In this document: positions 13,907 through 27,507 of the stretch, piece by piece | How the letters are laid out: every line of letters starts with the position of its first letter | Numbering within the stretch: position 1 is the first letter of the stretch | Made by a program: the position numbers and the translations under genes | Virus record (IMG/VR): IMGVR_UViG_3300013111_000230 | Span: 1 to 64,000 of that record | Direction: 5' to 3' (one strand) | DNA length: 64,000 nt | From: a virus | The notes under the pieces: generated by a model | What the model was told of the DNA's origin: nothing | The model's database searches: none | What the model saw: only the letters and a program-made list of their open reading frames with translations

Positions 13907-14268
13907 TCGGCGTCATCTTCTCCTCTTTCAATCAAATCAAAGACAAAGTCAATATCCTGATCGGTGATTCCCAGATCTCGCAGGGTTTGATTGCCTTGTT
14001 CAATGTCTTTGTTTTGTCTCTCAATTTTCTTTTTTCCAATTTTGTTCTTCTCCTGTTTTACTTTTGTAATGTACATCAAAATGTTTGGATCATTGTTGAT
14101 GTACCCTGTAACCATAGACTTAAAGAAGTCGACCTGACTTATGCCATCCCTCCTTAACTTAAGTCTCAACTCCGCATGCCTCTTGTCTGTGTCTGCGAAA
14201 GTTATCTTTTTTTCTTCCTGTCCGTACCTATAATAACCCACGATATAACCCACACGCTCTCCTGACAT
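13903..14268 (-). CDS. Unknown partner of the sigma-region-4-like protein, 121 aa
   Basis: A short strand (KITFADTDKRHAELRLKLRR) leads into DGISQVDFFKSMVTGYINND, a pattern like ribbon-helix-helix or small DNA-binding proteins. A Lys-rich coiled helix and an acidic C-terminus (DFVFDLIERGEDDAE) follow. Comparable genes sit beside sigma-region-4-like genes in other marine T4-like phages. The two overlap by ATGA and probably form one functional unit in transcription control; this is inference. Confidence 0.6.
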   Translation of the reverse strand: MSGERVGYIVGYYRYGQEEKKITFADTDKRHAELRLKLRRDGISQVDFFKSMVTGYINNDPNILMYITKVKQEKNKIGKKKIERQNKDIEQGNQTLRDLGITDQDIDFVFDLIERGEDDAE

Positions 14269-14485
14269 GCTCCTGGTCAGGGTTTTGACAGATTGTTTCG
14301 CTTATCGCAAAGCACATAGCCGTTCCCGTATAGTCCCTCAAAGTACAATTCGCGTTGCACTCCGATAGATGCCATACGGAAGACGGGTTGTAACAAACCT
14401 GTATACCGAGAGATCTAGTAACTGGTTCCTCTACTGTGGAATTGTCACCACAACCAAGTACCACTATCAACAACAAATATCTCAA
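14228..14485 (-). CDS. Cys-rich lipoprotein, 85 aa, TTG start
   Basis: A TTG start (14485) leads into a short lipoprotein signal (MRYLLLIVVLGC) with lipobox VLGC at residue 12. The mature domain has further cysteines in VCYNPS, ECNANC, AMCFAI, TICQN and RACGLY, consistent with a disulfide-bonded periplasmic protein. The TTG overlaps the TGA of the upstream membrane peptide. No family recognised. Confidence 0.7.
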   Translation of the reverse strand: MRYLLLIVVLGCGDNSTVEEPVTRSLGIQVCYNPSSVWHLSECNANCTLRDYTGTAMCFAISETICQNPDQEHVRRACGLYRGLL

Positions 14486-16704: not shown

Positions 16705-17351
16705 GCTTCGCAGGTGCCTCCACTCAAGTCCCTCTCCTCTAAGAGTGTATAAGTAAATTTGTTTCCATACTTATCAGATGCGTCCTCGCATGTCTCCATA
16801 AACTCTGCAAAGTCCACACTACTTTGGAACACTTGACAACCTGCTGATACACCGCCAGTGTTAACTCGTGCATCCGAACCACGGTGCTTATGAATGTTAA
16901 TACCGTACCAACCCTCGTCTTCTGGTCCGTGATAGTCTGGAGTTGTATCTCTGTTGTTGTCTCTCCATACGCTCACCTTACCGCCTCTTTGACATAGTGC
17001 GGTATGCCCCTTTTGACTATTACCATGCCAGTCGATCTTGTAAGTGCTCCTGTATTGCCCAGGAACCAAAATTGCAGTACCCTTGTGCGCTACTGCCTTT
17101 AATGGCCATCTCAAAATAGAAGTACCTGGTTCGGTAGTTACTGGGTATACATCCGCCACCCACTCTCCGTCCACTTTATAGATAACGTTAATTGAGTCAT
17201 CAAACTTTGATGCGTCACCAGAGTCGTTACGAACTCCAATGATGTTCAAGTTGAGGTCTCCGTTCTCAAAAAATGCATAACCTTTACTGGTTAATGCCTG
17301 TTTGTATTGGTCTGCCATCATCTTGGCAGCGAATCCTGTTAATTTAGCCAT
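16701..17351 (-). CDS. L,D-transpeptidase-like peptidoglycan enzyme candidate, 216 aa
   Basis: The C-terminal half has GINIHKHRGSD (His154) and GGVSAGCQVF (Cys172). Spacing and S-x-G-C resemble the His/Cys active site of YkuD-type L,D-transpeptidases (H...S-H-G-C). DFAEFMETCED follows. The N-terminal half looks like a strand-rich substrate or binding domain. No signal peptide is seen, so it would act through a holin or from the virion. It may be a cell-wall peptidase or endolysin. Assignment is by motif only. Confidence 0.6.
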   Translation of the reverse strand: MAKLTGFAAKMMADQYKQALTSKGYAFFENGDLNLNIIGVRNDSGDASKFDDSINVIYKVDGEWVADVYPVTTEPGTSILRWPLKAVAHKGTAILVPGQYRSTYKIDWHGNSQKGHTALCQRGGKVSVWRDNNRDTTPDYHGPEDEGWYGINIHKHRGSDARVNTGGVSAGCQVFQSSVDFAEFMETCEDASDKYGNKFTYTLLEERDLSGGTCEA

Positions 17352-20300: not shown

Positions 20301-20785
20301 AATCGATAAAAATAATCCCCCGAATAAGATTTGGAAATCATCTTATAAATATTCTGAAGTCCTGTCTGATTTTGTGCCAACAAGATCATATGACTCCTCC
20401 TATTAAGGATGGACTTCATCTTCTTCTTGGATGCTTCATTCTCGACAGTGGCGCCTGACTGCGTGGACTCAAGAGACTTTTTATTCTTTGCCTCTTGTCT
20501 TGCTTTTTCGTAATCCTCTTTCCAATTTGCAACACTTGGCACGAAATATGCTTCACAACCGAATATTGGTTTGAACTCCTTTCCTTCGGACATCATCTTC
20601 TTCGCGTGAATGACCTGGTAAGCAAGACCGTTTGCATTACCGTGATCCGTAAGAGCAAGGGCATCCATGCCGTTATCGTAGGCATAATCCATGTGCTGCT
20701 GGGGGTATCCGAGTGCGTCGAATATTGACCCAGCTACTGAGTGGGCATGTAGTCCCACAAATGGTATCTCTGGTTGCTTTCTCAT
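17363..20785 (-). CDS. dnaE: DNA polymerase III alpha subunit (DnaE-type replicase)
   Basis: This 1140-residue family C polymerase is near full length. The PHP domain keeps its metal ligands: HAHS (13-16), TDHGN (46-50), CEAY (77-80), His132 and ADSH (256-259). The palm has GRGSAAGSLVAYALG and PDIDYD (466-471) with the catalytic aspartates. Later come RSASRHAGGVVI, YRPGPL, SGYGFNKSHA and an OB-fold near 1030-1090. An intact PHP site often means built-in 3'-5' proofreading. It may replace the T4 gp43 polymerase. It overlaps the upstream gene by four bases. Confidence 0.97.
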   Translation of the reverse strand: MRKQPEIPFVGLHAHSVAGSIFDALGYPQQHMDYAYDNGMDALALTDHGNANGLAYQVIHAKKMMSEGKEFKPIFGCEAYFVPSVANWKEDYEKARQEAKNKKSLESTQSGATVENEASKKKMKSILNRRSHMILLAQNQTGLQNIYKMISKSYSGDYFYRFPRIDYAMLKKHSEGVIAASACLGGIYAGDFWQNRDEGEDAVLDAMRKTTQKMQSIFGDRWYGELQWNNIPEQHKLNQFIIQMHYEFGIDLISTADSHYYSPEAWKDRELYKRLGFLGRKVEWLSEELPIDVEEIGYELYPKNGDQMWESYKKYSEECGVEYNDNLVLNSITKTHDIAYNMIESFLPDNTVRLPDFVVPDGKSAGQALAVLCIAGAKEKGFADKTEYIERLKYEVNVIEDRGFSKYFLTMKKIAEEATRMQLTGAGRGSAAGSLVAYALGITQIDPIRYGLQFERFLTKGGSGYPDIDYDVSDPMVLKEHLIDEWGDDVVVPITNWNTLQLRSLVKDISKFYKIPFAEVNAVTNKMVYEATPLAKKAHGITAGVYSPTFEELMQYSESLQKFLNKYPEVETHVNALYGQTRSASRHAGGVVIGENLNEWMPLINSGGVRQTPWSEGQNVRHLETMGFIKFDILGLASLRMIEDAIRHILVRYEGVSDPTFEDIKTFYETKLHPEKINLDDEEVWKNVFHEGKWAGIFQFTENGAQDFCKNGRPNNITDLAAITSIYRPGPLSAGVDKMYIGAKENPEEVEYLNQYVRDVTEETYGFLIFQEQIAMLAHKLGKNLSLDEGNKLRKLLTKKGTGAPQVEMDKIYDKFRRGCLEKGMKQHEAKELWDKFKYFSGYGFNKSHAVSYCVLSFQCAYLLNYYPECWLAAFLDKEPDKRKERAINVAKSYGYKIEPLNVNTSGVRWEISEDGKTLIQPLSSIKGLGMTAIQQIIDNRPFNKIEEFLFNDNIIYSKLNKKAVSALCLSQALNCLMDERFSGMKHFWSAVAVERPRKEKNLEDNIEKFEPEGDFTDEEKLQYLVDLVGIFPMSTVMNEQLQSKIDELMIPPISEFDAELQVCWFIPREVLQKKTKNGKLFYVVKVIDSNSEENTIKCWGVDPNKDKVYVNRPYMARLHWDAQWGFSTRSVRKTFRMLA

Positions 20786-21597
20786 CTGTTTCCTTTCATT
20801 TTAATTGCCGCGCTGAAACAGTATCTCCAATCTGTTCCAATTTTGAGGGGATCTCTCATCATATCCTGATAGCCCTCCCACGACGAAATATCTTTATATG
20901 TATCTAGTTCAATTGAGCAACTGTTGTCACTCATTATATCATCACCAAAAACTAAGTCAAGTGTATAATCACTTTTTACATCGATTCTTTTAAATAAGTA
21001 AGAGCAGTGCTTAAATTGTCTTACACTAAAACTAAACCCCATATGATGTCCAGTTAAGGCGCTTTCCCCATTGTGTGTATAAAAGAAAGATTCATTTTGC
21101 TTGATCAACCCCCTAGCCTCTATGTTCCTTGGGTCATACACTCCGTAGGGCATGGACACGTAGTATCTATATGGCACTATCCATTTAGATATCTTGTCAC
21201 TGATCGTGAAACTTGCATTAACACCTTCCATAACTGAAACACCAATCCCATCTTTGTTCATGTTCTTGTATGATATCGGTACATAAAATATTGGTACCGA
21301 TGTCCTGTTCTCCTGGGGGAAGTTAGCAAACTTTGCTCTCTCATGTTGAGCAAGATTGAGAACAAAATCCCCGCAAACACTTTTAAGGAGTGGTGCAATA
21401 GACTCATCACAAACTACCCATATGGTCTTGCACCCAACATACGAACACTCTACAATACTTCTCTGTATAGCATAAAAGTTATTTGCAATCGGCAACATGC
21501 CTGGGTGGAGTACTAAATCTATATCAGAATCAACCTTCGATACTGGAATGATGCCTGCTATATGCTTCGATAATGTTGCTTCGTTTCTTTCTGTCAT
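20782..21597 (-). CDS. Conserved phage protein, nucleotidyltransferase-like, 271 aa
   Basis: The N-terminus reads GIIPVSKVDSDIDLVLHPGM, LPIANNFYAIQRSIVECS and KTIWVVCDESIAP. This is the Rossmann-like start of GT-A sugar nucleotidyltransferases (loop, helix, VxVVCxDxx strand). Similar proteins are conserved in marine T4-like phages without assigned function. Later WIVPYRYYVSMPYGVYDP and TGHHMGFSFSV are typical of that family. A role in sugar transfer to DNA or surfaces is possible. It overlaps the upstream conserved gene by 68 bases. Confidence 0.65.
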   Translation of the reverse strand: MTERNEATLSKHIAGIIPVSKVDSDIDLVLHPGMLPIANNFYAIQRSIVECSYVGCKTIWVVCDESIAPLLKSVCGDFVLNLAQHERAKFANFPQENRTSVPIFYVPISYKNMNKDGIGVSVMEGVNASFTISDKISKWIVPYRYYVSMPYGVYDPRNIEARGLIKQNESFFYTHNGESALTGHHMGFSFSVRQFKHCSYLFKRIDVKSDYTLDLVFGDDIMSDNSCSIELDTYKDISSWEGYQDMMRDPLKIGTDWRYCFSAAIKMKGNR

Positions 21598-22303
21598 AAA
21601 ACTTTATCTTCTTGGTACTCTTATACACTGTCTCCTCCATTGAGACAACCATTCTTTCCATTACTTCCAATTTGGGCTTCCTTCTTACTGTGCCACCCTT
21701 GTGGATTAAAGGTCTGTGTACTCCTCCCTGTTCCATTAACAACTTCTGAGTAATGAACCTAACCATTGTATCAGAATAATCAAAGTCTGTCAACTGTTCT
21801 TTCGTTAAGAAAGATACAGAGAAAATCTCTTTCTTTCCCGTGGACTCGATCCTCGAAATAAAACTGCCATTTGGAAAAACGGGAACTAAATTAGATGCAT
21901 CACAAAATTTCAACCTCATAAAATCGATAATTTTATAAGAATCTCGACCCTCTGTTGCCAATACTTCCAGATCTACTTTGATTGCACTGTCTGGAAAGAT
22001 GTGACACTTTTGAAACTGAATGTCAGTTCCTCTAATTTTAAGTATGTTTTCCTCTATTCTCACATATTCCAAATCAAATGGATTAACAATCAATCCCTTC
22101 ATCCCACACAAGAATTTAAGCATAGACCATGCCTCTGAATGTCTTGTAGTGGTCAGCTGCCCCACCTTTATCTGTTTGGCAAATTTGAGATCGACGGTGG
22201 GTAGTTGATGTCGGGGCAGGATTATCGGCACCTCTTCAGTATAAGACTTCATGAGAGCGCAGACATCCTGTCCGACTATAACCTCATCGAGTATCAATAG
22301 CAC
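21530..22303 (-). CDS. Conserved marine-phage protein of unknown function, 257 aa
   Basis: The protein has mixed alpha/beta character with a basic C-terminus (KSTKKIKFYDRKKRSN). HSEAWSMLKFLCGMKGLIVNPFD type segments occur in relatives next to the nucleotidyltransferase-like gene in other marine T4-like phages. No catalytic motif is apparent. Conserved adjacency suggests a two-protein unit with 20782-21597. Its start overlaps the VWA lipoprotein stop by 10 bases. Confidence 0.6.
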   Translation of the reverse strand: MLLILDEVIVGQDVCALMKSYTEEVPIILPRHQLPTVDLKFAKQIKVGQLTTTRHSEAWSMLKFLCGMKGLIVNPFDLEYVRIEENILKIRGTDIQFQKCHIFPDSAIKVDLEVLATEGRDSYKIIDFMRLKFCDASNLVPVFPNGSFISRIESTGKKEIFSVSFLTKEQLTDFDYSDTMVRFITQKLLMEQGGVHRPLIHKGGTVRRKPKLEVMERMVVSMEETVYKSTKKIKFYDRKKRSNIIEAYSRHHSSIEG

Positions 22304-24360
22304 ATACCCATGGCAAAATCATACCTGGAACCATATGATTCATCTATTACAATCCCAGAGACGTTCATGAACCCTGAAGGTGTTACATACGTTGCCTCCT
22401 GCTCAGATGATCCCAAACAAATGTCATCCAAGATAGACATTAAGTCATCATACATTTGCTGTTGGTTGCGAGATAGTTCAAAAATAGTTCCATTGCCACT
22501 TGTCACATAGTCGTTCCAAACACGAGAGCGCCTTTCTGCGAAAGCATAAAACTTTAAGTTCGGAGTAGATTCAAGTGCTTCCAAGACTTGAGTTGCAGTG
22601 ACAGTTGGAACCAAGTAGGACTGTGCATATTCATCACTAAATAAGACAATAATCCTATCTGCGTTTGGTCTCCAGTTCACCTTGAAGAATTTTAATTCTG
22701 GGATTGAACCCATTCTATTGGCCCAAGTTGCTTGAGCAAAGTTATAGTTAACATTGCCAGAGATGTTTTGCAGAGCGAGTAAAATGGCATCCTTAAATTG
22801 CTCGTTGCCTGTCGAGTTGTCGAACTGCCCTACATTGGAAAATGCTGTTAGGAACTGATCGAACTCAGTGATATTCGACTCCATAATAAGCATCTCTTGC
22901 GTGCCAGTAGGAGTAGGGGCTCCTTTAGGTCCAACGATTAGTCCCCACTTCAATTTATCCTCTGCTGCAAAATTCTGAGCAAATCTATTCATTGCCATCC
23001 TCACTGCATTGATATAGTTCTCCATGGAACCAGACCAGTCTACTAAAAATAAAATATCTGTCTCTGGAATTTCCTCTCCGTAGTCTACGATACCGTCACA
23101 GTCATCGTCAGCACCATTGCAGATTTCCTCCTGTGGTAAAGTTTCACCTCCACAAAAGTCAACGACTTGACCTTGTGTTGGGTGGTCTCCATACCACTGC
23201 CCTCTGTTACAAGACTGCTCTCCCATTTCGCAGATTCCCACATTCAAGGTACCTTCAGGCCCAGTGTAGCAATCTCTAACAAGCTGTTCATCTATCAAAC
23301 TATCACAGTCTTCATCGAAGTCGTTGCACATCTCAGGGTTTATGGCAACTCCTGCAAACTGATCGCACTCCTCACCAGGTTCTAACTCAGGAACCCAATG
23401 GCAAAGAGCAAAGCACTCGGTCATCTGAGTGATTTGGCACTCCTCATTAATACACTCGCAAGTCTTAAACCCCATACCACAAGTTAAGGGAGGTTCCATG
23501 CAGGGCACGAGCGCGCCCACTGACTCTGGTGGGCATTGGCAGTTCAAACCTTCGTCAACTAGATTATCACAGTCATTATCCTCGCCATCGCAGGCTTCAG
23601 GTGCAGGTCTTTGAGCAGTGCAACCTATCCAGTTGCCGTTTGCACATATCTCTAAACCTGAGTTACAAGTAGTTGAACACTCTCTAATAAGTTGTTCGTC
23701 AGCTGAACCGTCGCAATCATTATCAAGTCCGTCGCAAATGTCTTCTGGAACCTGTCCACAACCACCGCAGGCATTTAACTGGTTTTCATCAACATTGCCA
23801 TCGCAGTCGTTATCCTGGTTGTCACAAACCTCTTCCTCTTCAAAACAAGTAATACACTCTCCGTAGTAAAGTCTGCCCTTGTCACATTTAACTTCCTGTC
23901 TACCTGTGGTGCCATCTATTTCACAATCATAATACATCGTGAAGTCTTCGTTTATCCCAGGAGGACAGTCGAATGCGTGTACACATTCAGATTCCTCTAA
24001 AATCTCTGCTGGTGGACAGTTTGGATCTCTGTTTCTATCACAGGGAATCAAATCTTCTCCACAAATGTCTAGGATTGCATATTTTGCCCGAATCTCTGTT
24101 CCCGTAGGTGGACAGTACCAAGTTTGGCGTTGGCAACAAGTCGGATTGCAGGTGCAATATAAATCATCAGTGTTCGCAAGATTAGCACAGGGGTCCACCC
24201 AAGCATCTACAGTGATATCTGGGATTTCAACAATCTGAGTGTCAACAGAGGAATCAACAATCACCATTCTTTGTACATCTGGTGCTGGTGCAGTGCCGAT
24301 GGGCGTCGAGTCTGTACAAGCAACAACAAATAGCATACAGAACAAAATTCTACTTTTCAT
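22294..24360 (-). CDS. Large VWA lipoprotein with MopE-type metal-binding repeats, 688 aa
   Basis: A lipoprotein signal (MKSRILFCMLFVVAC, lipobox VVAC, Cys15) leads to a Cys-rich region. Five repeats of the form CDG-x-DNDCDG-x-xDE follow, at about 178-192, 208-222, 257-270, 345-358 and 414-427, as in MopE and deltaproteobacterial surface proteins. A von Willebrand factor A domain starts near 435, with a MIDAS-like DWSGS (441-445) and IIVLFSDEY. It is predicted to be outer-membrane anchored and Ca2+-rich. Such a protein is very unusual in a phage. It lies downstream of lysis-type genes. Confidence 0.85.
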   Translation of the reverse strand: MKSRILFCMLFVVACTDSTPIGTAPAPDVQRMVIVDSSVDTQIVEIPDITVDAWVDPCANLANTDDLYCTCNPTCCQRQTWYCPPTGTEIRAKYAILDICGEDLIPCDRNRDPNCPPAEILEESECVHAFDCPPGINEDFTMYYDCEIDGTTGRQEVKCDKGRLYYGECITCFEEEEVCDNQDNDCDGNVDENQLNACGGCGQVPEDICDGLDNDCDGSADEQLIRECSTTCNSGLEICANGNWIGCTAQRPAPEACDGEDNDCDNLVDEGLNCQCPPESVGALVPCMEPPLTCGMGFKTCECINEECQITQMTECFALCHWVPELEPGEECDQFAGVAINPEMCNDFDEDCDSLIDEQLVRDCYTGPEGTLNVGICEMGEQSCNRGQWYGDHPTQGQVVDFCGGETLPQEEICNGADDDCDGIVDYGEEIPETDILFLVDWSGSMENYINAVRMAMNRFAQNFAAEDKLKWGLIVGPKGAPTPTGTQEMLIMESNITEFDQFLTAFSNVGQFDNSTGNEQFKDAILLALQNISGNVNYNFAQATWANRMGSIPELKFFKVNWRPNADRIIVLFSDEYAQSYLVPTVTATQVLEALESTPNLKFYAFAERRSRVWNDYVTSGNGTIFELSRNQQQMYDDLMSILDDICLGSSEQEATYVTPSGFMNVSGIVIDESYGSRYDFAMGMCY

Positions 24361-24619
24361 TTTTGTTTCTCAACTTAAGGATTCCCTTTACTTCATTTAG
24401 ATCTTTTGAAGTTTCTTCGAGATCTGCTTGCGTCGATTCCAGAATCCTCAGTACAGTATCTGATTTTTCAATTATACGATCTATACTTTCATTGAGTGCT
24501 TGAGATTGAATCTTTGCTTCTCTCGCGCTCTCTTGACGCTCTGCCCCTTTATACTGATAAACCCCAAACAAACCCAAGGCAAAAACGCCATAGAATATAA
24601 AAATACTTCTTGTCTTCAT
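24350..24619 (-). CDS. Inner-membrane coiled-coil protein, i-spanin candidate, 89 aa
   Basis: From ATG 24619 (AGGAGG four bases upstream) the protein starts MKTRSIFIFYGVFALGLFGV, one N-terminal membrane helix. A long charged helix follows with heptads (NESIDRIIEKSDTVLRILES, then LEETSKDLNEVKGILKL). This is the i-spanin (Rz) topology: short cytoplasmic start, membrane anchor, periplasmic coiled coil. It lies between a lytic transglycosylase and a lipoprotein gene, as in lysis cassettes. It overlaps both neighbours' ends. The role is inferred from topology and context. Confidence 0.6.
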   Translation of the reverse strand: MKTRSIFIFYGVFALGLFGVYQYKGAERQESAREAKIQSQALNESIDRIIEKSDTVLRILESTQADLEETSKDLNEVKGILKLRNKNEK

Positions 24620-24644
24620 GGTACCTCCTCGTACGCTCCCTATC

Positions 24645-25127
24645 TCAACATCCATCTTCATCTAAGATAGATTTATATTTCTTCACAATCTTAATATAAT
24701 GCATTCTATCATAAGAATTCTTCCAGCGCAAGCAGATCGTGCCAGTACTATAAAAGCACAACCCCTTGTTTACATTACCCTTGGCATAAACCCTTATATT
24801 GTAAGATAAGATTTGGGCGCCTACTTTTATTGACACTTTCGGGTTCTTCAACTGTTCGCAAGTGTATTTCCTATTTTTGGTTTCTGGTCCACCTGTCCAT
24901 CTAGGTATTACCTGAGTGAGTCCGCATGCTCCCGCTGGCGAAGTGACCCACGGTACAAACGAACTCTCGGCCATAATTACGGCCGCCAAGAGAGATGGTT
25001 CAATGTCATTCTTTTCTGCTTCTGCAATTATTGTTGGAACATAAGAGCACGCTCTGCGTGATGAAGAATCTGTAAGTCCAAAACTGCTGCCGATAATTGC
25101 ACAGAGTGCTAGCATTGAGACTGGCAT
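24645..25127 (-). CDS. Secreted lytic transglycosylase (SLT/GH23)
   Basis: This 160-residue protein has an N-terminal signal or signal-arrest helix (MLALCAIIGSSFGL). The SLT domain follows: catalytic Glu54 in AAVIMAESSF, then SPAGACGLTQVIP, and a later SYNIRVYAKGNVNKGLCFY where Tyr often completes the site. It cleaves the glycan backbone of peptidoglycan in the periplasm. The signal segment means it can reach the wall through the Sec system, so holin need not release it. It shares one base with thyX. Confidence 0.9.
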   Translation of the reverse strand: MPVSMLALCAIIGSSFGLTDSSSRRACSYVPTIIAEAEKNDIEPSLLAAVIMAESSFVPWVTSPAGACGLTQVIPRWTGGPETKNRKYTCEQLKNPKVSIKVGAQILSYNIRVYAKGNVNKGLCFYSTGTICLRWKNSYDRMHYIKIVKKYKSILDEDGC

Positions 25128-25834
25128 TATCTCTCCTCCATCTTATTCAATATAAATGATTGTACTGAGTGTGGGAACAGACCCTCTACAATCTCCAGGC
25201 ATGCCTCGGCAACCTGTTGGATCTCCCACTGGGCGCCCTCATGTGAGCGCAGCTGCACAAACTTAAGAAGGTTGTGTAAATTAACAGTTCCATAATATTT
25301 GGTGTATAAATTCTGAGGGAGGATACCTCTGGCCTGTTCCCTGCAGACACCCGCATCAAGCAGACTTTCAAACAACTTCAGACTCTCTGAGTGATGAGAT
25401 TTTACCAAGTCTGCCGCTAGAGCGGAAACTGGAAATCCTGACCTGTTGTATTCCAGTATTGGATTTGTTAATTTATCCTTACTCGCCTGTCTATTACTTT
25501 CGTGCTGGGTTCTAAATTCTCTAGGTTCATAGAACTCCATATCTACAGCAGTATACCTTCTAGATATCTCATTGTATGCCCAAGTGCGGTGTCGATGATG
25601 CTGACTACGAATAAACAAAGGTACCGTGAACCTAAAAGTAACAGTGCAGTGCTCAAAAGGAGAAGAATGATTATGGGACATAAGATAATTGATGAGTTTG
25701 ATGTCCTTCTCATCTACTTCTTCCTTTTCCGACCCAAAAGAGACCCGCGCTGCATTAACAACCGACAAATCTGAACCCATATGTGAAATGTATTCAACCG
25801 CACCTATATCGTCTCCATATAGTTCAATTCTCAT
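25127..25834 (-). CDS. thyX: Flavin-dependent thymidylate synthase ThyX
   Basis: This 235-residue protein has the ThyX signature RHR-x7-S-x-R near residues 81-94 (RHRTWAYNEISRRY), NHSSPFEHCTVTF for FAD and dUMP contacts, and a C-terminal LRSHEGAQWEIQ. It makes dTMP from dUMP using methylene-THF and FAD. I use ATG 25834 because AGGAGG lies five bases upstream. It overlaps the groES stop by 11 bases. Together with dUTPase and thymidine kinase it covers both routes to dTMP. Confidence 0.96.
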   Translation of the reverse strand: MRIELYGDDIGAVEYISHMGSDLSVVNAARVSFGSEKEEVDEKDIKLINYLMSHNHSSPFEHCTVTFRFTVPLFIRSQHHRHRTWAYNEISRRYTAVDMEFYEPREFRTQHESNRQASKDKLTNPILEYNRSGFPVSALAADLVKSHHSESLKLFESLLDAGVCREQARGILPQNLYTKYYGTVNLHNLLKFVQLRSHEGAQWEIQQVAEACLEIVEGLFPHSVQSFILNKMEER

Positions 25835-26144
25835 TCGGCCTCCTGTAGATCCCAACTACATAGTTTTCTAAAATCATGTAGTGTGTTCTACCACCTGCTT
25901 CAACTTCCTCAATCATAGACTTGTCAACAACAATCTCTTTCGGTCCGATTCTGTTAAACTTCAACTCATGAAAGTCCTTCTTACAATCAGAAGCAACATC
26001 CACTACGGTTGCCTTGATGAACCTGGACTCTTCTTGCTTGAAATCATCTGGTAAAATTACACCAGTGTCCGTCTTCTCTTCCTTGTAGTGTGGCACAATT
26101 GCAATGTGTCTGTTGACAGGTTTCAGCATCATCAAATCAGTCAT
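25824..26144 (-). CDS. groES: GroES-type co-chaperonin
   Basis: The 106 residues match Cpn10: LKPVNRHIAIVPHYKEE at the start, a mobile loop DTGVILPDDFKQEES (compare GGIVLTG of GroES), a core strand ATVVDVASDC and a closing MILENYVVGIYR. GroES caps GroEL through the loop hydrophobics (here VIL). The roof region is longer than in E. coli. GGAGG precedes the ATG. It is separated from the phage groEL by about 15 kb but is on the same strand. Confidence 0.88.
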   Translation of the reverse strand: MTDLMMLKPVNRHIAIVPHYKEEKTDTGVILPDDFKQEESRFIKATVVDVASDCKKDFHELKFNRIGPKEIVVDKSMIEEVEAGGRTHYMILENYVVGIYRRPNEN

Positions 26145-26435: not shown

Positions 26436-26464
26436 ATAATACTAAATTATATCAATTAATGCAA
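26436..26464 (-). promoter_or_regulatory. Sigma70-like promoter of the GroES/ThyX unit
   Basis: Minus strand -35 TTGCAT (26459-26464), 17-base spacer, -10 TATTAT (26436-26441). The -35 has two mismatches from consensus, so it is weaker than the groEL promoter. Confidence 0.5.
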
Positions 26465-26571: not shown

Positions 26572-27507
26572 TCACGACACCTCCTGAACCAGTAACACAA
26601 TAATGATCGAAACGGACAGTCCCAACATCATCTTCATGAAGTCCTTGGCGACAAGAGGAAAGACCTTTTTCACCTTTCTATCCATTCTCGTTGCAATGGC
26701 GAGTTCACGACCACAAAGCAACCCTACAAACACCCACGTTGTGCTCATGGGAATGTTGTTCATCTGCTTTAGGTACAGTAAGATAAAAGCATAAACCGCA
26801 TCGATGATTGTGGCCGAGCGCACATAAGACGTAGAGGATTTCTCAATTACTATCTGCTGTATCTTGCCACCCTTGGTATAAAAGACATACCCCAACACAG
26901 ACACCAATAACACAAGCACGCCTGACAAGAACTCTACGCTCATCTGTCTTGGTGCGAACACTGCTATGTTCGCGAGGTCATGACTTAGCCAAGTGAACCA
27001 TAAGAATCCCGTTGTACCCCACTGGGCGATGCGCCAGGCACGTTCATGGTCTGGTTTAACCTTCTTCTTTTCGTCTAAGTATTTGGACAGAATCATCCAA
27101 AACCCGTAAGCTACAGTTGCTGCTATGGCATATCCAAGGACACTCTTAACCAACATCTTCTCAAAAACAACAGTACTAGCAAAGGCGGATAACACCAAGA
27201 ATGTCGTAGAGACTGGAATGCCATATCTTGTCAGCAACAGTAAAACACCTGGTGCTAATGCATGGTACCACTCAACTGTTACGAAAGGTATCTTCTCTAG
27301 GCGTCCGAAGGATATGTCTCCTCCATATGCAAACCAACTGTACAAAACAGTCGCAACAAGCACTGATGAGGCAGCTGCCCACAGTTTCCACCATGGCGTC
27401 TTCTTATTCGACACCATAAACGTTCCCAAGGTTTGAACGGCATCGTTACTCATAACCGCTGTGCCAGCAAGGGTGATCCCAACAAGGGGCAAAATCATCT
27501 CTAACAT
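26572..27507 (-). CDS. PiT-family phosphate transporter
   Basis: The 311 residues contain about eight membrane helices and two PiT half-repeats. The first has MSNDAVQTLGTF and RYGIPVSTTFLVL; the second has SHDLANIAVFA and MNNIPMSTTWVF. ND-x-A-N/Q and P-x-STT are PiT signatures for phosphate and cation binding. At 311 residues it is a compact version of the 400-500 residue cellular transporters. It would sit in the inner membrane and raise phosphate (or sulfate-like anion) uptake during infection. AAGGAG precedes the ATG. Confidence 0.88.
   Translation of the reverse strand: MLEMILPLVGITLAGTAVMSNDAVQTLGTFMVSNKKTPWWKLWAAASSVLVATVLYSWFAYGGDISFGRLEKIPFVTVEWYHALAPGVLLLLTRYGIPVSTTFLVLSAFASTVVFEKMLVKSVLGYAIAATVAYGFWMILSKYLDEKKKVKPDHERAWRIAQWGTTGFLWFTWLSHDLANIAVFAPRQMSVEFLSGVLVLLVSVLGYVFYTKGGKIQQIVIEKSSTSYVRSATIIDAVYAFILLYLKQMNNIPMSTTWVFVGLLCGRELAIATRMDRKVKKVFPLVAKDFMKMMLGLSVSIIIVLLVQEVS

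Follow-up and report, generated by a model that had tools for sequence, protein, structure and literature searches.

A VWA-domain lipoprotein with MopE-type repeats, stably carried in an operon of T4-like phages and possibly acting at the surface of infected cells

What would a T4-like phage gain from encoding a large lipoprotein that is built like a bacterial surface protein? The question is raised by a gene (hereafter ‘LP’) at positions 22294-24360, on the minus strand, of a 64,000-nucleotide stretch of viral DNA (positions 1 to 64,000 of IMG/VR record IMGVR_UViG_3300013111_000230; this whole stretch is termed ‘the window’). Our own reading of the phage genes agrees with the first-pass annotation, made earlier from the letters and the open reading frames (ORFs), that the source is a T4-like phage: tail sheath, tail tube, UvsX, terminase, portal, major head protein and baseplate wedge are all recognizable, and the closest terminase among the matches listed is that of Flavobacterium phage immuto (43.4%). 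LP is of a known kind, that of bacterial VWA/MopE surface lipoproteins, but it is stably owned by phages; the reading that we tentatively place first is that of a phage-owned, surface-acting, adhesin-like VWA lipoprotein, most likely serving superinfection exclusion or receptor masking.

A single ORF with an ATG start codon spans 22294-24360 (stop codon included) and encodes 688 amino acids (aa), for which the earlier label of a ‘giant’ protein is too strong a word. The predicted signal peptide is short (residues 1-14; 24319-24360, like all LP features on the minus strand), and its lipobox, which is kept across the family, ends in VVAC, with Cys15 (24316-24318) as the predicted lipidated residue. 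A variable Asp/Pro-rich linker with an Asp at position +3 from that cysteine (residues 16-46; 24223-24315) leads into a Cys-rich N-terminal domain with 15 conserved cysteines by Cys-column count (residues 47-172; 23845-24222), and this is followed by five MopE-type Cys/Asp repeats, read from the sequence and the family alignment: C179-E192 (23785-23826), C209-E222 (23695-23736), C257-E270 (23551-23592), C345-E358 (23287-23328) and C414-Y427 (23080-23121). The match to PF11617 (MopE) lies above its cut-off (E = 1.1e-14; 54.8 bits against 27), with the best stretch at residues 206-222. The C-terminal VWA domain (residues 430-650; 22411-23073) carries the first motif of a metal-ion-dependent adhesion site (MIDAS), D441-W-S443-G-S445 (23026-23040), and the conserved Asp576 of the third motif (22633-22635); its match to PF00092 (VWA) is below the curated cut-off (E = 4.5e-4; 20.9 bits against 23.8). 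The lipobox, the five repeats and the VWA domain with its MIDAS-like motif had all been noticed in the first-pass annotation, and each is borne out. Searches of PHROG, NCBIfam and PADLOC with LP gave no match, and sequence searches of the PDB gave nothing convincing.

Membership of the VWA superfamily thus rests on predicted fold and motif, the Pfam score being sub-threshold. An AlphaFold2 model of LP has a mean predicted local distance difference test score (pLDDT) of 68.8, with ten-residue blocks of the VWA domain between 64 and 90. Using VIA-align, model residues ~430-650 aligned to the VWA domain of TFIIH (5ivw_0; Z 18.6, 178 residues aligned, 2.3 Å), and the model likewise aligned to an integrin (5ffo_B; Z 17.6, 187 aligned, 3.0 Å); in a Foldseek search of the PDB, integrin beta heads top the list (E = 2.4e-6). 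The best viral structure match in BFVD is A0A516KYY5 (E = 1.1e-16, 25% identity), yet that protein has 266 aa only, and giant-virus and phage VWFA proteins are found at lower identity among the further viral VWA matches. Matches at E ≤ 0.01 to PF00092 were obtained for 22 of the 26 family members scanned, and to PF11617 for all 26.

How widely such a protein is carried by phages could be judged from metagenomic viral contigs. In IMG/VR, the whole LP protein retrieved 21 loci, the alignment 32 and a profile of the fifth repeat plus VWA (‘MopE5+VWA’) 66, while a VWA-only profile found 232 encoding stretches, a number that may include paralogues; the best 80 of these (79 loci) were carried forward, and the locus sets of the four queries overlap. 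From 59 collected proteins, 47 non-redundant members (those less than 97% mutually identical) were retained. Left out of that count were L002 and L006 (100% identical to the window), L024 and L026 (duplicates of L023 and L027), L020 (two ORFs), the truncated L030, L032, L091, L165 and L183, L193 (25% identity), and contigs known from earlier scans; 22 later loci, some of them near-identical (L235 and L237 among others), were counted apart. The recurrence of one architecture in 47 non-redundant relatives, ~620-770 aa long, indicates that it is not a product of chance. The lipobox is present in every one (46 by regular expression and L016 by eye), as are the first MIDAS motif, DxSGSM, and the third-motif Asp (47/47 each); the second MIDAS motif reads TG or SS in many members, with Thr replaced by Gly in one subclade. 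Between residues 47 and 649 lie 46 Cys columns, all at least 90% conserved among 46 members, which fits an oxidizing, extracytoplasmic location. LP is under purifying selection: the ratio of nonsynonymous to synonymous substitution rates (dN/dS) was 0.052, 0.125 and 0.033 (the last at a dS of 1.4) in the three informative pairs out of 13, the other ten comprising eight with saturated dS and two that were near-identical. Two family loci stand apart: L020 (7992-10046) has its LP gene in two ORFs, either because the copy is broken or through an error in sequencing, and the viral contig of L193 (5257-7236) encodes the more distant MopE/VWA protein mentioned above next to an Hsp20-like gene (by eye).

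The setting of the gene is as regular as its architecture. The genes most often run in the order orf90-GroES-ThyX-[variable]-LP-orf257-orf271-DnaE, with ThyX (25127-25855, minus strand; from Pfam and locus comparison) present in 25 and orf257 in 24 of 31 loci compared. In the window orf257 (21530-22303, minus strand) overlaps the end of LP, and its start lies 9 nucleotides (nt) before the LP end at 43 of 66 LP ends; 7 more show another close register, and 16 lack a coupled ORF, with cut contigs counted as misses. The protein is conserved and gave no convincing match in Pfam, PHROG or PDB-sequence searches. Its neighbor orf271 (20782-21597, minus strand) is predicted to have a nucleotidyltransferase fold of the RmlA-like, sugar-nucleotide type (Foldseek E = 4.2e-9; VIA-align Z 18.8), with no convincing Pfam match and, by eye, without the usual GxGTRL motif. 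A C-terminal Cys-aromatic end of LP was considered as a sorting signal and rejected, the same codons supplying the orf257 start in most loci; the C-terminal Cys is also present in L016, L017 and L027, three loci in which no coupled orf257 was detected.

The gene orf271 occurs both with and without LP, and anchoring on it gives a view of the slot that does not select for LP. Among the best 80 of 234 orf271 relatives, near-identical contigs included, 66 slots were assessable: 41 hold LP itself (‘LP-A’), 6 a sister paralogue (‘LP-B’), 3 both and 16 neither, so that one or both lines occupy 50 of 66. LP-B, likewise a lipoprotein and related to LP-A, has MopE repeats and the motif DVSGSM; it takes the LP slot in some phages, forms a tandem with LP-A in L151 and L306, and has no match in GenBank phage records. 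The gene also occurs in a different backbone, as in G006, G007, G011 and some other genomes. LP distances follow those of ThyX closely (Mantel rho 0.72, a value reached in 0 of 999 permutations; 25 of 46 loci, those with all genes present), and more so than those of DnaE or of ribonucleotide reductase, the values for which are given below; this implies a ThyX-LP segment that moves between phages.

Three side observations belong to these neighborhoods. An ORF resembling PHO4 phosphate transporters, below the Pfam cut-off, lies at 26572-27507 (minus strand) of the window, in a phage. An 85-aa Cys-rich small lipoprotein is encoded at 14228-14485 (minus strand), its family being found also in G001, G006 and G008, and relatives of it stand directly upstream of LP in L017, L018 and L020. 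Finally, genome G011 (280,913 nt; loci L054-L068) carries, at bases 246320-247282 and 271337-271750, a second VWA lipoprotein (320 aa) and pilin-like ORFs (PilX-like by eye), one pilin-like ORF lying just 3' of LP; the 320-aa protein is by eye like the small Myxococcota VWA lipoproteins L272 and L278, and has no GenBank phage match.

The first-pass annotation had taken LP for a gene captured from the host by this phage, and a stronger version would make it a recent capture, a passenger without a role in infection. MopE-repeat proteins are indeed common in metagenome-assembled genomes (MAGs) of Myxococcota, and LP shares the Cys/Asp repeat family (PF11617) with such proteins of Myxococcota and other bacteria; the bacterial proteins inspected are mostly larger than LP, and 4 of their ORFs show a VWA-like motif. 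When bacterial genome contigs were searched with the whole-protein LP alignment, six pattern matches and no relative were returned, and the MopE5+VWA profile gave at least 38 loci, mostly MopE-only and many from Myxococcota. One of them, L091, matched over 158 of 244 residues, while none of the other 37 listed extended beyond residue 67 (the MopE repeat and at most the VWA start). L091 (5703-7109) is an LP fragment at the end of a 7.1-kb Halieaceae MAG contig, with an abrupt join to genes that have no phage matches, and the contig is probably an assembly chimera. At a threshold of 1e-6, the phage VWA profile matched only one of the ten genomes behind the MopE matches, namely that of L091 (G016), and none of the other nine. 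A Myxococcota-centered draw contained weak, partial VWA matches (30-36 bits) in 10 of 282 genomes, which is a point in favor of a captured host gene, and a Pseudomonadota-centered draw a match in 1 of 299, which is G016 itself. The cellular VWA domains sampled are remote from that of LP. Against a recent capture stand the 232 LP-type stretches in viral contigs, the purifying selection and the fixed coupling to orf257 at 43 of 66 LP ends, together with the lack of any close cellular relative in the sampled bacteria except the chimeric-looking L091. Breadth and conservation therefore disfavor a recent capture, which we regard as very improbable, and capture by this particular phage is not upheld, many phages sharing the gene; an ancient cellular origin is possible.

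When during infection LP is made bears on a second alternative, that it is a structural protein of the virion. A 146,626-nt relative, G001, is near-identical to the window phage (the first 200 bases of the window lie at its base 16,820) and encodes an identical LP. The 7-mer CTATTTA, a late-type motif, is enriched in the 60 nt before genes 17-fold in G001 and 19-fold in G008, and 12 of its 21 sites in G001 precede a gene, including those for tail sheath, tail tube and baseplate wedge as well as genes without an assigned function; for the T4 late motif TATAAATA there is no enrichment (2 seen against 2.18 expected). Within 400 nt upstream of LP, CTATTTA was found in none of 46 members (L151b left out) and none of the 22 later loci, some of these upstream stretches being shorter than 400 nt. 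A loose TTGACA/TATAAT scan placed sites before several early-type genes (for example a GroEL-like gene, by eye) and also before some structural genes. A candidate sigma70-like promoter, TTGCAT-N17-TATTAT, was picked out by eye rather than by that scan before the operon running from orf90 to LP (26436-26464, minus strand), and is weaker than the scan sites. On these motifs, LP is probably made together with the replication genes. That it is conserved across related phages would suit a virion protein; the absence of CTATTTA before LP, where the G001 tail and baseplate genes have it, the position among replication genes and the lipoprotein signal all speak against one, and we consider this the least credible of the alternatives. 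With respect to the possibility, named at the outset, of a conserved virion component across related phages, the conservation has thus been confirmed, whereas the CTATTTA scans give no sign that LP is part of the virion.

Where, then, might the protein reside? Of 69 sequences given to a strict lipobox filter, 57 passed, and 47 of these have an Asp at +3 after the lipid-bearing cysteine, against a baseline of 14% Asp in the following linker. This Asp partly resembles the surface-export signals of Bacteroides and Flavobacterium, published as S-D-D... (PMC5080379), and by that analogy is a hint of surface display. LP would reside in the infected cell's outer membrane, and probably at its surface. 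A sequence of events can be proposed in which LP, made with the replication genes during infection, would be exported by the Sec pathway, lipidated at Cys15 and transferred to the outer membrane, where an integrin-I-like VWA head would be held off the membrane by a flexible linker of Asp and Pro and by a MopE stalk that would be braced by disulfides and would probably bind Ca2+. The MIDAS of that head might then bind an acidic group on a surface partner, and the likeliest payoff would be the masking or capture of a phage receptor or tail fiber, that is, superinfection exclusion.

Two other functions could be served by the same architecture. As a periplasm-facing outer-membrane lipoprotein, LP might buffer Ca2+ or Cu, or brace the envelope, during infection: in many bacteria the periplasmic side is the default orientation of lipoproteins, and the MopE motif family owes its name to putative metal binding. 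This seems improbable, for it leaves the invariant first MIDAS motif and the long linker unexplained. Alternatively, LP might be a cell-cell or surface adhesin, the VWA head gluing infected cells to neighbors or particles, which would bring progeny into contact with new hosts. The integrin-I-like fold found by Foldseek and VIA-align is in keeping with such a role, as is the existence of two VWA lipoprotein lines, LP-A and LP-B, sometimes in one phage. There is also a precedent in CglB, the gliding adhesin of Myxococcus xanthus, which is a lipoprotein and, as LP is predicted to be, a surface VWA protein (the two were compared by description only); unlike LP it is cellular and is recruited by the Glt gliding complex, and it is not known to have a MopE stalk. 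CglB mediates strong substrate binding (PMC13104615). VWA domains, however, have many roles, and a cellular ligand for LP is hypothetical; adhesion between cells is ranked second, after superinfection exclusion or receptor masking, and is in itself doubtful.

A role at lysis, which the first-pass annotation had proposed beside the spanin-like gene, deserves a separate account. In the window, an Rz-like ORF (24350-24661, minus strand), with an N-terminal transmembrane segment and, by eye, a coiled coil, overlaps the LP start by 11 nt and weakly matches an Rz-like spanin family (PHROG 9841; E = 2.3e-4); an SLT transglycosylase (24645-25127, minus strand; Pfam) lies upstream of it. LP might accordingly substitute for an o-spanin, partnered with an Rz-like i-spanin and an SLT endolysin, and the layout recalls that of two-component spanins (Rz/Rz1, PseT.3/PseT.2), in which a lipoprotein accompanies an N-anchored coiled-coil protein in overlapping genes. 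Moreover, in another backbone (L028 and L235, to which L237 is identical) LP is directly preceded by an SLT gene, and small proteins with an N-terminal transmembrane segment or small lipoproteins are encoded just upstream of LP in G011, G006, L017, L018 and L020. Among nine joined genomes and the loci of earlier scans, however, the Rz homologue occurs only in G001 and L003, so that this partner is not conserved with LP, and SLT is a frequent but non-exclusive neighbor, lying up to 3.5 kb upstream of orf257 in 17 of 41 LP-A slots, 0 of 9 LP-B slots and 7 of 16 slots with neither. With SLT no commoner beside LP than without it and the Rz-like neighbor rare among the sequences searched, the lysis reading loses ground. 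LP is also far larger than a spanin, its mature part alone having ~673 residues, whereas the two-component spanins described so far have 62-300 periplasmic residues for both partners summed (PMC6139136). Inspection by eye of the other two frames of the Rz ORF revealed no embedded ORF with a lipobox. A lysis role for LP is thus unlikely, and the spanin-substitute version of it quite improbable.

Against these alternatives, superinfection exclusion or receptor masking by a surface-acting LP retains its tentative first place, and several points count against it. A tblastn search with LP at 1e-3 found no match in 50,697 GenBank phage records, so that there is no phenotype to borrow. Sixteen of the 66 slots hold neither LP-A nor LP-B, which makes LP dispensable to the operon, and LP tracks the phage backbone weakly (Mantel rho 0.18 for DnaE, 39/999, and 0.25 for ribonucleotide reductase, a gene named by eye, 8/999; n = 25). 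The N-terminal domains are poorly modeled, as the whole-model mean pLDDT reflects, and metal binding may be lost in the subclade whose second MIDAS motif has Gly in place of Thr. Compared with the published surface signals, the Asp at +3 is a weaker cue and may follow from a different sorting rule. In the window, moreover, SLT and Rz-like genes do stand in the LP operon, whose replication genes alone do not exclude lysis.

To our knowledge, phage lipoproteins of known role are all small, being exclusion proteins or o-spanins. The superinfection-exclusion lipoproteins of the T5 Llp type are phage-encoded outer-membrane proteins made during infection, small and without VWA or MopE; LP would share with them its predicted nature as a phage-encoded lipoprotein, and differs in being large and in having both domains. 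Among the matches listed in literature searches on phage VWA lipoproteins, MopE, marine-phage VWA and phage-encoded exclusion lipoproteins, no title or abstract describes the LP family. On a broader view, which is conceivable and which we hold still more loosely, LP-A and LP-B might be widespread integrin-like adhesins of tailed phages, long and braced by disulfides and Ca2+, which, displayed as lipoproteins on infected cells, would reprogram the cell surface and either exclude rival phages or glue those cells to new hosts.

In summary, a VWA/MopE lipoprotein encoded within an operon is a stable possession of T4-like phages, and a sister paralogue can take its slot. If LP acts on the surface of the infected cell, phages would be making an adhesin or shield of a new class, and, if that is true, the remodeling of the host envelope by lytic phages would become testable.

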